A stretch of 32,890 nt of DNA from Ardenticatenaceae bacterium (GTDB lineage Bacteria > Chloroflexota > Anaerolineae > Ardenticatenales > Ardenticatenaceae), in assembly GCA_026989095.1 (NCBI GenBank), contig JALSKA010000013.1, positions 1-32,890 of the forward strand, written 5' to 3'. The position numbers and the translations under genes were made by a program. Shown piece by piece: positions 25,052 to 29,963 of the stretch (position 1 is its first letter; each line of letters starts with the position of its first letter). The notes below the pieces were generated by a model. The model made no database searches. It was not told the DNA's origin and saw nothing but the letters and a program-made list of their open reading frames with translations.

Positions 25052-25642
25052 TCACCACTCCCCGTCCCCAGCGTAGGGCAGGCTCCACAGGGCCACTTGC
25101 ATGACGACTGACTTGAACCACGCCTGGTGCATCTTCTCCACGTCGTCGGCGCTGTGGCCCTTCTTCTCGAGGAAGGGGCGAATGGTGGCCGTGATCGGGT
25201 AGATGAAGGCGATTAGGTACCGGAGCGGTATGTGAGGCGCCGAGTCCACCCGATCAGTTTGGTTCTTCTTGGTCCGGTGATGGCGCAGGCCGATCTCGTG
25301 CTGGTAATTGAGCCAGTCCCGGTCGTAGGGCCGGCGACAGGTGTCCAGAATCCACTGGCCAAAGCGCCGGCGCACGGCTTCCAAGTACTCGGGAATGGGC
25401 TGGCCCGTTGGGTCGGCAAAGTAGGCCACAAGGTGCGGGTGGGAGCCGACGAAATTGTACCACAGGTCGAGCACCTCTTCAACCTGATCGGCCAACACCT
25501 CGCCGGCCATGCGCAAGTAGCGCACGTCCTCGTCGGTGAAGAGCACGGTGCTCTTCAGGCGCGCGAAGTCCTCGTCGCTCACCGGAGACGAGACGACTTC
25601 CGAGCTGCCATACGTGTAGCCGGGAATGCTCTGCCCGCTCAT
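25052..25642 (-). CDS. Protoglobin
   Basis: A 196-residue single-domain protoglobin (PF11563). From memory the sequence tracks Methanosarcina acetivorans Pgb over its whole length: IPGYTYG at the start, AGEVLADQVEEVLDLWYNFVG, RRFGQWILDT, EIGLRHHRTKKNQTD and AFIYPITATIRPFL. The proximal haem ligand is His121, equivalent to archaeal His120. Protoglobins bind O2, CO and NO in a buried haem; as a stand-alone domain it would be a sensor, scavenger or nitric-oxide-handling protein. The ATG at 25642 follows GAGGAGG. It has a strong promoter with an overlapping palindrome and is followed by a MarR-type gene. Confidence 0.95.
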   Translation of the reverse strand: MSGQSIPGYTYGSSEVVSSPVSDEDFARLKSTVLFTDEDVRYLRMAGEVLADQVEEVLDLWYNFVGSHPHLVAYFADPTGQPIPEYLEAVRRRFGQWILDTCRRPYDRDWLNYQHEIGLRHHRTKKNQTDRVDSAPHIPLRYLIAFIYPITATIRPFLEKKGHSADDVEKMHQAWFKSVVMQVALWSLPYAGDGEW

Positions 25643-25697
25643 CGTCGCCCTCCTCACGGGGTTGGCGAATTGATCCTCCCGACCGGCCGCGGCCAAT

Positions 25698-25865: not shown

Positions 25866-26867
25866 TTGGCGTCGGAGGGCGGTATCGGGAGCGGGAAGGC
25901 AGTGTCCTCAAGGATCGAGGTGCCGGACGACTGGCTGGCGCGCCTGCCGGACGAGCCACCGCGGGGGCTGGTTATGCTCGTGGGCGCGCCGGACAGCGGC
26001 AAGACAACTCTGGCCCGCTACTTGTGGGAGCGCTTCGCGCCGCTCGTGGAGACGGCGGCTTGGCTGGACGCGGACATTGGGCAGAGCACCTTGGGGCCGC
26101 CGACGACAATGACCCTCGTACTCGCCCGGGCGGCGGCGGAACCGGTGTATCCGCCCAAGGGAACGCGCCGGCGCTATTTCGTGGGCAACACCTCCCCGCG
26201 CGGCCACATGTTGAGCGTGGTGGTGGGCGTTGTGCGCTTGGCCCGCTTGGCCCTGCGACGGCGGGCCCACTTCGTCCTGGTGGACACGACCGGGCTCGTC
26301 GCCCCGGAGCGGGGCGGCGTGGCGCTCAAGCAGGCCAAGATCGAGCTGCTGCGCCCCCGTTGGGTGGTCGCTCTCCAACGCGAGGCCGAACTGGAGCCCA
26401 TCCTGGCCCCGTGGGCAGATCACCCCACCATTCGCGTTGTGCGCCTGCCCGTCGCCCCGTCCGCAGTGCCCAAGCCACCGGAACGCCGGCGGGCTCACCG
26501 GCGCGAGCAGTTTCGCCGCTACTTCGCCCGCGCCGGCCGGCTCGTGTTGCCCTTGGACCGCCTCCCTGTGGTGGGCCAGGGGCGAATCGAGCCGGGCCTG
26601 TTGGTTGGGCTCCAGGACCGGGATGGGTTCACGTGGGCTTTGGGCGTGGTCGAGGAGGTGACGTCGGCCTCCGGCCACTTGGTGGTGCGGACACCCATGC
26701 GCGACGCCGCCCCTGTGCGGGCCCTGCGCTTGGGACGGCTCCACTTGACGCCGGACTTCGAGGAGCGCTTTCCCCTCCGGCGCCCCACGAGGTTGGAGGA
26801 AGGGGGCGATCGCGGCGGTGCGGGGGAGGAAGGCTCTACGGGCGAAACGAGTGGAGACGACAAATAG
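25866..26867 (+). CDS. Clp1/Grc3-like polynucleotide 5'-kinase
   Basis: A 333-residue P-loop protein of the Clp1/Grc3 (PF16575) type. Walker A is GAPDSGKTT (40-48), followed by the family's DADIGQST (68-75), PRGH (111-114) and VDTTGLVAPERGGVALKQAKIELLRP. Eukaryotic and archaeal members phosphorylate 5'-hydroxyl RNA ends in tRNA splicing or rRNA processing; bacterial homologues are little studied. The C-terminal beta-rich part (about 230-310) resembles the extra domain of Clp1. The start is uncertain: TTG at 25866 lacks a clear ribosome site and GTG at 25902 is a good alternative. The last 32 bases overlap the 3' end of ruvC on the other strand. Confidence 0.85.
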   Translation: MASEGGIGSGKAVSSRIEVPDDWLARLPDEPPRGLVMLVGAPDSGKTTLARYLWERFAPLVETAAWLDADIGQSTLGPPTTMTLVLARAAAEPVYPPKGTRRRYFVGNTSPRGHMLSVVVGVVRLARLALRRRAHFVLVDTTGLVAPERGGVALKQAKIELLRPRWVVALQREAELEPILAPWADHPTIRVVRLPVAPSAVPKPPERRRAHRREQFRRYFARAGRLVLPLDRLPVVGQGRIEPGLLVGLQDRDGFTWALGVVEEVTSASGHLVVRTPMRDAAPVRALRLGRLHLTPDFEERFPLRRPTRLEEGGDRGGAGEEGSTGETSGDDK

Positions 26868-27312: not shown

Positions 27313-28058
27313 GCGGCCAATTGCTCCAGCACCTCGTCGCTGAACCGCACGTTCGTGTACACGGCCTGCACGTCGTCCAAGTCCTCCAGGGCCTCGATCA
27401 GCTTGGCCACCGAGAGCTGCGTCTCCCGGTCGAGGTCGAGGTAGGTCTTGGGAATCATCTTGAGTTCGGCCGACTCGATGTGGACCTGCTGGGCGTCCAG
27501 TGCTTCCCTGACCTTCTGCAAGTCGGCCCGCCCGGTGACGACTTCGAGGTAGTTGTTGTCCTCGTCCACGTCCTCGGCGCCGGCGTCGATGGCCTGGAGC
27601 ATGAGTTCCTCGGCATCTTGGCCGTTCAAGGGGATGAGAATGATCCCCTTCTCCTCGAACTGCCAGGCCACGGACCCCCCTTCGCCCAAGGAACCACCGT
27701 GCTTGCGCAAGGTGGAACGCACCTCGCCGACAGCACGGTTGCGGTTGTCGGTGAGGCACTTGATCATGAGGGCGGCACCACCAGGGCCGTATCCCTCGTA
27801 CCAGACTTCTTCCAGGGCCTCGCCCTGGAGCTCGCCTGTGCCCCGTTTGATGGCCCGCTCGATGTTCTCCTTGGGCATGTTGGCCTGCTTGGCCTTCTCC
27901 AGCACCATGCGGAGGGTGAAGTTGACGCTTGGATCTCCCCCGCCCAAGCGGGCCGCCGTCTCGATCTCGCGGGCGAGCTTGGTGAAGAGCTTGCCTTTCT
28001 TGGCGTCCACAGCCGCCTTGCGGTGTTTGATGTTTGCCCACTTGGAGTGTCCGGCCAT
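27309..28058 (-). CDS. yebC: YebC/TACO1-family protein
   Basis: A 249-residue protein starting MAGHSKWANIKHRK, the universal opening of the YebC/PmpR/TACO1 family, with PKENIERAIKRGTGE, YEGYGPGGAALMI and NRNRAVGEVRSTLRKHGGSL. Members act as transcription regulators (PmpR) or, as shown for TACO1 and recently for bacterial homologues, help ribosomes translate proline-rich stretches. The length is normal. AAGGAGAG precedes the ATG. It is coupled to ruvC by a four-base overlap. Confidence 0.97.
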   Translation of the reverse strand: MAGHSKWANIKHRKAAVDAKKGKLFTKLAREIETAARLGGGDPSVNFTLRMVLEKAKQANMPKENIERAIKRGTGELQGEALEEVWYEGYGPGGAALMIKCLTDNRNRAVGEVRSTLRKHGGSLGEGGSVAWQFEEKGIILIPLNGQDAEELMLQAIDAGAEDVDEDNNYLEVVTGRADLQKVREALDAQQVHIESAELKMIPKTYLDLDRETQLSVAKLIEALEDLDDVQAVYTNVRFSDEVLEQLAA

Positions 28059-28091
28059 ACGCCCCTCTCCTTCCCTATTTCAACACCTCGT

Positions 28092-28135
28092 GAAGAGCCG
28101 ACTTTCCTCATTCTTTCGCCGGTGGAGGGCTCTTC
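28092..28135 (-). repeat. Inverted repeat in the yebC leader
   Basis: GAAGAGCC (28092-28099) is matched by GGCTCTTC (28128-28135) around a 28-base loop, between the BON-protein stop and the yebC start. There is no T-run, so it is not a standard terminator. It could be a leader hairpin. Confidence 0.4.
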
Positions 28136-28169
28136 CTCCCGTGTCAGGCCGAGCCGAATTCGGACGAGC

Positions 28170-29879
28170 TCACTTGAGCGCGGCCTGGGCCTCGGCGATG
28201 ATCTCCTCGGGGTTGGGCCCCTCGCCTTTCTTGAAGGCGCTCTTGGCCTTGGCGAAGGCCTTGAAGTCCTCGGGGGCCCACTGCTCCTTGGGCTTGAGGG
28301 CCCAAGCGGGGTACTTCTCCAACAGCTCGGGGGGAATGTCGCCCGCGGGGGCCTGGGTCTCTTGGGCGCCCTGGGGAGCCGGGGCCGAGGCCAGGGCGTC
28401 CTCCTTGGCTTTCTCCAGGGCAGCCTGGGCTTGAGCCACTATTTCGTTGGGGTCCGGCCCCTGGCCCTTCTTGAAGGCGCTCTTGGCCTTGGCGAAGGCC
28501 TTAAATTCGTCGGCACTCCACTCGTCCTTGGGCTTGAGGGCCCACGTGGGGTATTGGGCGGCCAGCCGCTCGACGATGGCTTGGAGCTCTTGGGCCGAAA
28601 GCTCCCGCCGGCGGGTGACCATGGCGTCGCCAGCGCCCTCGACGGCCTCGCCCCGTTTGGCCTTCTCCAGGGCTTCTTGGGCGGCCTGGAGGATCTCCAC
28701 CACGGGCTTCCCCGTGCCCCTCAGCTCGGCCACTTTGGCCTCGGCTGCCTCGCGGAAGTCGTCGGCCGTCCAGAGCCGGCGCGGCTTGAGGGCCCAATCG
28801 GGGAACTGGGCGCGCAGGGCCATGAGGGCGGCCCGGCGCGGGTCTTGGACGGCCTCGGCGCTCTCCTGGGCCGAGGCTTGGCGGGCGGCGCCCAAGGCCT
28901 CCTGGAGCTTGGCCTGGGCTTGGGCCTGCACCTCCTTGGGGTCGGGGCCTTGGCCCTTCTTGAAGGCGCTCTTGGCCTTGGCGAAGGCCTTGAAGTCGTC
29001 AGGGGCCCACTGCTCCTTGGGCTTGAGGGCCCACTCGGGGAACTCCTGCTTGAGCTGGGCCAACACCTCGTCGGGAATCTCGTCCGGCGTTGCCGGCGTG
29101 GCCTGTGCGGGAGCTGTCTGGGCCGCCGGTGCCGGCCCCACGTCGAAGCCGAACAGGTCGTCCTCGCCCTCCTCCTCGGGCGGGGCAGCCGTCGCCGCGG
29201 CGCTCTCGCGGAGAATGCGGCCGGCCTCTTCGATCTCCTTGGGATCAGGCCCCTCGCCCCGCTTGAAGGCCATCTTGGCACGGGCGCGGGCCTTGAAGTC
29301 CTCGGGGGTCCACTCCTCCTTGGGCTTGAGGGCCCAAGCGGGCAAGTCGTCGGCGGTGACGGGCCGGCCGCCGACCATCGCCTGTTGAGGGCCGCCGGCG
29401 CCGGCCTTTCCGCCCTTGCGCCGCTTCTTGGGGGCCAACACGCGCTCGATCCAGGCGGGGTTGACGTCCATGTAATCGTGAACGTCCAGCACTCCCGGCA
29501 CCTGGAGCGCAATGCGCCGGATCTCCTCGCGGGCGCTCTCGCAGGGCACGGGGCCGCGCAGCATCACGTGCCCCTTGATGGCGCGCACTTGGACGGGGAG
29601 GGGAGCCAGCCACCCGCCGTCGGCTTCTTCCAGGGCCTCGGCCACGGCCACTTCCAGGGCCGAGTCGGAGATGAGCCGGTTCTCCACCTGCCGGACGCCG
29701 GGCACTCGGCCGGCCAGCTCTTCGGCGGCGAATTTCATGTTCTCCGTGCGCACGTATCCGCGCAACACGATCGAACCGTTGCTCACCTCCACGTGAATGG
29801 CCGTCTCGCCGGTCCGAATGGGGTCGTAGGCCAAAAGTGTTCGCTCGACAGCTTGGCGCACCGCTTCCACGTTGACCAT
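28170..29879 (-). CDS. BON-domain protein with five 37-residue WALKP repeats
   Basis: A 569-residue protein. Residues about 1-72 and 73-140 are two BON domains (e.g. EVSNGSIVLRGYVRTEN ... AGRVPGVRQVENRL, and AIKGHVMLRGPVPCES ... LQVPGVLDVHDY), a small alpha/beta fold that binds phospholipid or other hydrophobic ligands. A basic KKRRKGGK stretch at about 151-158 follows. Then five units of exactly 37 residues start at Pro180, Pro281, Pro360, Pro444 and Pro524: P-x-WALKP-[KR]-x-x-W-x-x-[DE]-[DE]-F-K, a lysine-rich helix, then G-x-[GP]-x-P-x-x-[EV]-[IV]. The linkers are Ala/Pro/Glu-rich. There is no signal peptide, so it is probably cytosolic or membrane-peripheral. The ATG at 29879 follows AAGGAGG by ten bases. 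The repeat unit is not one I recognise. Confidence 0.88.
   Translation of the reverse strand: MVNVEAVRQAVERTLLAYDPIRTGETAIHVEVSNGSIVLRGYVRTENMKFAAEELAGRVPGVRQVENRLISDSALEVAVAEALEEADGGWLAPLPVQVRAIKGHVMLRGPVPCESAREEIRRIALQVPGVLDVHDYMDVNPAWIERVLAPKKRRKGGKAGAGGPQQAMVGGRPVTADDLPAWALKPKEEWTPEDFKARARAKMAFKRGEGPDPKEIEEAGRILRESAAATAAPPEEEGEDDLFGFDVGPAPAAQTAPAQATPATPDEIPDEVLAQLKQEFPEWALKPKEQWAPDDFKAFAKAKSAFKKGQGPDPKEVQAQAQAKLQEALGAARQASAQESAEAVQDPRRAALMALRAQFPDWALKPRRLWTADDFREAAEAKVAELRGTGKPVVEILQAAQEALEKAKRGEAVEGAGDAMVTRRRELSAQELQAIVERLAAQYPTWALKPKDEWSADEFKAFAKAKSAFKKGQGPDPNEIVAQAQAALEKAKEDALASAPAPQGAQETQAPAGDIPPELLEKYPAWALKPKEQWAPEDFKAFAKAKSAFKKGEGPNPEEIIAEAQAALK
28200..29342 (-). repeat. Five 111-bp coding repeats (WALKP units)
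   Basis: Copies at 28200-28310, 28440-28550, 28692-28802, 28929-29039 and 29232-29342, each 37 codons. Copies 2, 4 and 5 (protein order) are nearly identical at DNA level across the block encoding FKAFAKAKSAFKKG, while copy 3 is diverged. This suggests recent duplication or gene conversion. Spacers are unlike one another. Confidence 0.85.
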
Positions 29880-29963
29880 CGTTCCCGAGCCTCCTTCGCG
29901 TTCGCCGGTCAAAGATGAGGGACTCTACGGCGTGTGTGCATATAAGGAACAAAGGGCAACCAG

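Follow-up and report, generated by a model that had tools for sequence, protein, structure and literature searches.

In Escherichia coli DolP, the second BON domain (BON2) binds phosphatidylglycerol and cardiolipin; this binding needs W127 in helix 1 of BON2, and according to the authors BON is not a general lipid binder (PMC7806268). In Kbp, K+ is bound in the BON domain, near the interface with LysM (PMC9481166). BON function in Chloroflexota is almost unstudied in the literature that we searched. Here, we define a conserved repeat domain that is restricted to one lineage within the class and the phylum sample searched, is named in none of the libraries searched, and stands on a known tandem-BON base.

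The gene (here BON-WALKP, after its two BON domains and the motif of its repeat) lies in the window, that is, the whole stretch of 32,890 nucleotides analyzed, from an Ardenticatenaceae bacterium. Its features are as follows.

28170..29879, minus strand: BON-WALKP gene for a 569-aa protein with BON-BON and five WALKP units, start codon ATG
29673..29867, minus strand: BON domain 1 (PF04972, Pfam)
29457..29669, minus strand: BON domain 2 (PF04972, Pfam)
29388..29435, minus strand: basic linker after BON2, KKRRKGGKAGAGG..., about residues 149-164, pLDDT <50
29205..29342, minus strand: unit 1, residues 180-225, probable ancestral type, with DLPxWALKP and the helix-C pattern of the single unit in genome G006
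28902..29039, minus strand: unit 2, residues 281-326, in concerted evolution with unit 4
28665..28802, minus strand: unit 3, residues 360-405, diverged, helix B acidic, kept position by position
28413..28550, minus strand: unit 4, residues 444-489, in concerted evolution with unit 2
28173..28310, minus strand: unit 5, residues 524-569, at the C-terminus

The two BON stretches named in the preliminary description were both recognized by PF04972 in Pfam (91.1 bits against a curated cut-off of 27), and no LysM domain was matched in the protein in Pfam or NCBIfam. No signal peptide or transmembrane stretch was apparent, the maximum Kyte-Doolittle mean over 19 residues being 0.74, at residue 89. 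The N-terminus, MVNVEAVRQAVERTLLAYD, contains no hydrophobic stretch; a lipoprotein signal peptide is absent, and the protein has no lipid anchor. On the plus strand, an 865-codon frame (27321-29918) lies opposite yebC and the BON-WALKP gene. It was read as an antisense frame and rejected as coding, because the BON matches and the low dN/dS both belong to the minus strand; high G+C codon usage is its most likely source.

WALKP motifs start at residues 182, 283, 362, 446, and 526 of 569. The spacings between them are 101, 79, 84, and 80 residues, so the linkers vary in length, as the preliminary description had stated. Ungapped self-matches of 46 residues scored 99 to 203 (BLOSUM62), whereas the best of 300 shuffles of the tail reached 59; even the worst pair was far above the shuffles, and the five-copy repeat that had been proposed is real. 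At the DNA level, four 158-nt copies and five 53-nt copies were found in register, and Tandem Repeats Finder reported no repeat in the gene because the linkers vary. Fifteen columns are invariant in the five units of the window protein, and 11 remain so over the 21 units of the order (P4, W6, A7, L8, K9, W14, A23, A25, A28, G32, and G34). One of the alignments used (A2) contains a single wrong residue in unit 2, E in place of Q ahead of the P and thus outside the core, whereas A1, A3, and A4 are free of this error. The unit had been given as exactly 37 residues, which proved too short: gap-free homology extends over at least 46 residues, from P-x-WALKP through helix C, and the 37-residue limit ends inside helix C, leaving a homologous core of about 46 residues. 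The second Trp and the acidic-acidic-Phe step are present in all five units, and P-x-WALKP-K is shared by four of them but not by unit 3, which reads WALKPRR.

AlphaFold2 modeled the unit (24 alignment rows) with a mean pLDDT of 86.8 and a pTM of 0.65, placing helices at 6-17, 33-47, and 54-70. In the full-length model (pTM 0.31), helices B and C follow a short turn at WALKP in every unit, and the linkers at residues 149-164, 231-267, 337-345, 414-424, and 499-514 all have pLDDT values below 50. The five units are thus predicted to form beads without a fixed mutual arrangement on disordered linkers; on the level of prediction, this agrees with the earlier suggestion of independent small modules. 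An additional short helix precedes the WALKP motif in four units; it is absent from unit 1 and therefore lies outside the common core. Variation is minimal in the WALKP loop, at the second Trp, among the small residues of helix B, and in the G-x-G turn, a pattern that we read as a fold together with a single conserved face. A Foldseek search of the unit model against the PDB gave a best E of 3.6 and nothing below 0.001, which is mild evidence, as the method is weak for small helical folds; against viral folds, the best E was 2.1, and no match was obtained. The full-length model matched the folds of OsmY (8rjx, E 3.9e-07) and DolP (7a2d, E 1.4e-06), and the BON half also matched BonA.

The preliminary description had attributed to the units a strongly basic amphipathic helix and, perhaps, binding of nucleic acid or acidic lipid through its lysines. 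Helix B (15 residues) carries a charge of +3/+4 in units 1, 2, 4, and 5, as it does in the one unit that G006 has, so the basic part of this claim stands for four units. It fails for unit 3, whose helix is acidic (-2) in all five complete five-unit proteins, and the amphipathic part was not borne out, the hydrophobic moment being equaled by 12-92% of shuffles. Furthermore, whole modules are near neutral (-2 to +3), and the protein overall is acidic (-11 in the window protein, -7 to -11 over the five-unit proteins). For these reasons, the Lys helix is disfavored as the common working part, and a mechanism based on it is poorly supported, although the basic helix in four of the five units is still compatible with attachment to nucleic acid or anionic lipid.

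That the Lys-rich helix B binds DNA or RNA, with several weak sites adding up to avidity, is an unlikely reading. It would be favored by the basic helices listed above, by the KKRRK linker downstream of BON2, and by the position of the gene upstream of yebC and ruvC in genus g1. However, the acidic helix of unit 3 and the charge totals argue against it, and its other two supports are not general: APKKRR of the linker is kept in genera g1 and g3, but G006 lacks the KKRRK linker, and the yebC neighborhood is not maintained outside genus g1. No nucleic-acid-binding family was matched.

The gene neighborhood was rejected as a clue to function, since the yebC, secA, and chelatase neighbors change between genera. 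The yebC-ruvC pair lies downstream of the BON-WALKP gene in genus g1 only. In G005, secA is divergent and directly adjacent (L051 8251-11496), in G001 it is two small reading frames away (L030 1469-4507), and in the window genome it is not beside the gene; in G006, a chelatase-like AAA-VWA gene is a neighbor. Several other genes were observed around these loci. Convergent with ruvC in the window is a gene for a CLP1-type P-loop protein (25866-26867, plus strand; PF16575, E 6.6e-33), likely a polynucleotide 5'-kinase, whose adjacency to ruvC is kept in L029 and L030. A protoglobin gene (25055-25696, minus strand; PF11563, E 2.6e-37) lies near the yebC-ruvC-CLP1 group. In G001 (L030 7733-9534), the space between the BON-WALKP gene and yebC holds an AAA_21 ATPase gene, putatively of AbiEii type, together with a second small gene that looks PIN-like by eye; the pair is absent from the window and L029 and is a possible mobile or defense insertion.

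A peripheral membrane protein, with the BON domains and/or the unit helices resting on anionic phospholipid at the inner face of the membrane, is quite unlikely. Anionic lipid binding by BON2 of E. coli DolP (PMC7806268), the two Trp and the basic residues of each unit, and the proximity of secA in G005 and G001 are in line with such a role. However, the DolP authors hold that BON domains do not bind lipid in general (PMC7806268), and the position of DolP W127 corresponds here to Ala74 by an approximate hand alignment around DolP K131, in a helix that is acidic. DolP-type lipid binding by BON2 therefore appears unlikely from the residues at this site. The shuffle-level amphipathicity of helix B and the lack of a lipid anchor or signal peptide likewise speak against a membrane location.

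The BON-WALKP gene was found in all seven genomes of the order Ardenticatenales that were searched, two of which are metagenome-assembled genomes labeled Ardenticatenia and Ardenticatenaceae. Five genomes carry five units each (G000, G001, G002, G004, and G005), and the copy number is constant at five in two genera. G006 has BON-BON plus a single unit, and in G003 the gene is apparently split across two contig ends, one carrying BON-BON and the other the last unit. Outside the order, none of 389 other genomes of the class contained the unit, and the phylum sample yielded, apart from its two members of the order, a single chance match; the restriction to the order thus holds within the class and the phylum sample. 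Elsewhere in Chloroflexota, the unit profile gave weak matches (E 0.0001-0.1) that were rejected as chance, being short or out-of-register alignments to unrelated proteins. Beyond Chloroflexota, 84,980 species genomes were scanned for peptide patterns of the window protein, an approach that detects close relatives only. No relative of the unit was found in viral contigs, plasmids gave matches to BON only, and a text search for WALKPK gave no match. The tandem-BON profile, by comparison, matched 110 of 400 phylum genomes. BON-BON occurs alone (G016/G051) or fused to CBS/CorC (CorC_HlyC), PRC-barrel, or metallophosphoesterase (Metallophos_3) domains (L063, L070, L073, L075, and L080), which suggests that Chloroflexota reuse the tandem BON as a cytosolic module, a sensor or an adaptor.

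Unit 1 and the single unit of G006 group together (support 64/85), and both have DLPxWALKP. Because G006 combines BON-BON with one such unit, growth of the array to five from a single ancestor resembling unit 1 is most likely; alternatively, G006 may have lost units, from five to one. Within the array, units 2 and 4 of G001 are 93% identical in DNA, whereas orthologous units 2 and 4 of G001 and its congeners are 78-83% identical. A single clade was rejected for all unit 2 copies (AU p 0.0008) and for all unit 4 copies (AU p 0.0002) but not for unit 5 (AU p 0.08), and unit 3 formed one clade with full support; in this short DNA tree, bootstrap values are not fully settled, and the weaker branches are unusable. 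With paralogues closer within a genome than orthologues between genomes and single clades rejected, units 2 and 4 undergo concerted evolution, for which gene conversion is the simplest cause, and units 1 and 3 retain their own identity. The concerted evolution may represent plain gene conversion without selection for sameness. dN/dS was 0.00-0.21 for the units, 0.02-0.10 for the BON part, and up to 0.29 for the linkers; this purifying selection indicates that the array is used.

These data also bear on the idea that the units form a conserved passive tail, serving as a spacer or for solubility or stability, whose easy expansion and conversion would stem from its repetitive DNA. The difference between one and five copies and the homogenization of units 2 and 4 by recombination would fit such a tail. 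It is nevertheless improbable, given the constant five copies in two genera, the position-specific sequence held by units 1 and 3, the invariant Trp, Lys, and Gly residues alongside a dN/dS of no more than 0.21, and the confident fold prediction.

Nothing above cut-off covers the unit in Pfam, NCBIfam, PHROGs, or PDB sequences, in keeping with the earlier remark that it was not recognized as a named domain, and an existing Pfam family of known function that includes it was looked for and not found. phrog_6154 (E 0.0048, whole protein) was rejected, as no single unit matched any PHROG, and DUF1771 (PF08590) stayed below its cut-off (14.6 bits against 28.7). DUF3012 (PF11216) is the only family match that recurred frequently: 10 of the 21 units matched it at E up to 10, the best at E 0.0012 over 16 residues, and ten reversed units gave no match, so it is kept as a lead. 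The two share, at similar spacing, a 16-residue stretch with KPK, W, an acidic-aromatic step, and AK. That the unit is a remote DUF3012 member with the function of that family is very improbable, as its matches reach only 12.8-18.4 bits against a curated cut-off of 25 and align 16 of the 32 profile positions, leaving the other half of the profile unaligned.

We favor, at a probability of about 0.42, a cytoplasmic multivalent scaffold in which a tandem-BON module carries independently folded repeat beads for a protein or small ligand; the evidence against the Lys helix and against DolP-type lipid binding favors partners of this kind over nucleic acid or lipid. In this scaffold, the N-terminal tandem BON would be the module widely reused in Chloroflexota, alone or beside sensor or enzyme domains, to whose C-terminal side the Ardenticatenales would have added a new domain of about 46 residues, in which helix B (DDF-x3-A-x-AK), a G-x-G turn, and helix C follow a P-x-WALKP loop with a second Trp. 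A single unit would have come first, followed by duplication to five, each folding by itself and attached through a disordered linker of Ala/Pro/Glu. Recombination together with purifying selection would keep units 2, 4, and partly 5 alike, as would fit an array that binds one partner repeatedly. Units 1 and 3 would be kept different, probably for other jobs, such as contact with the BON half and a second partner. More tentatively, the new domain, born or recruited in the Ardenticatenales ancestor, could be a recognition bead for one conserved cellular partner, with beads held near-identical by gene conversion and one stably divergent bead making a dedicated hub on a BON sensor and possibly condensing that partner; this extension of the scaffold is possible but doubtful.

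The domain has a narrow taxonomic range. With its one unit, G006 forms a likely before-and-after pair with its five-unit sister family, and a ready set of orthologues allows the growth and homogenization of a repeat array to be traced in one small order. The locus also highlights the tandem BON as a probable cytosolic module in Chloroflexota.

Among known systems, the other Chloroflexota tandem-BON proteins come from the same phylum and are recognized by profile as sharing this BON-BON module (E down to 1e-30); those examined are without the WALKP unit. OsmY and DolP resemble the BON-WALKP protein in having two consecutive BON domains of matching fold, but neither has the five extra units. OsmY is periplasmic, whereas the BON-WALKP protein has no apparent signal peptide; DolP is a lipoprotein with a Trp in helix 1 of BON2, where the BON-WALKP protein has none. 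Kbp also lacks a signal peptide. Its K+ is held by backbone carbonyls of the BON domain, and it pairs one BON with LysM where the BON-WALKP protein pairs two BON domains with WALKP units; the two are alike in joining BON to a small accessory domain.
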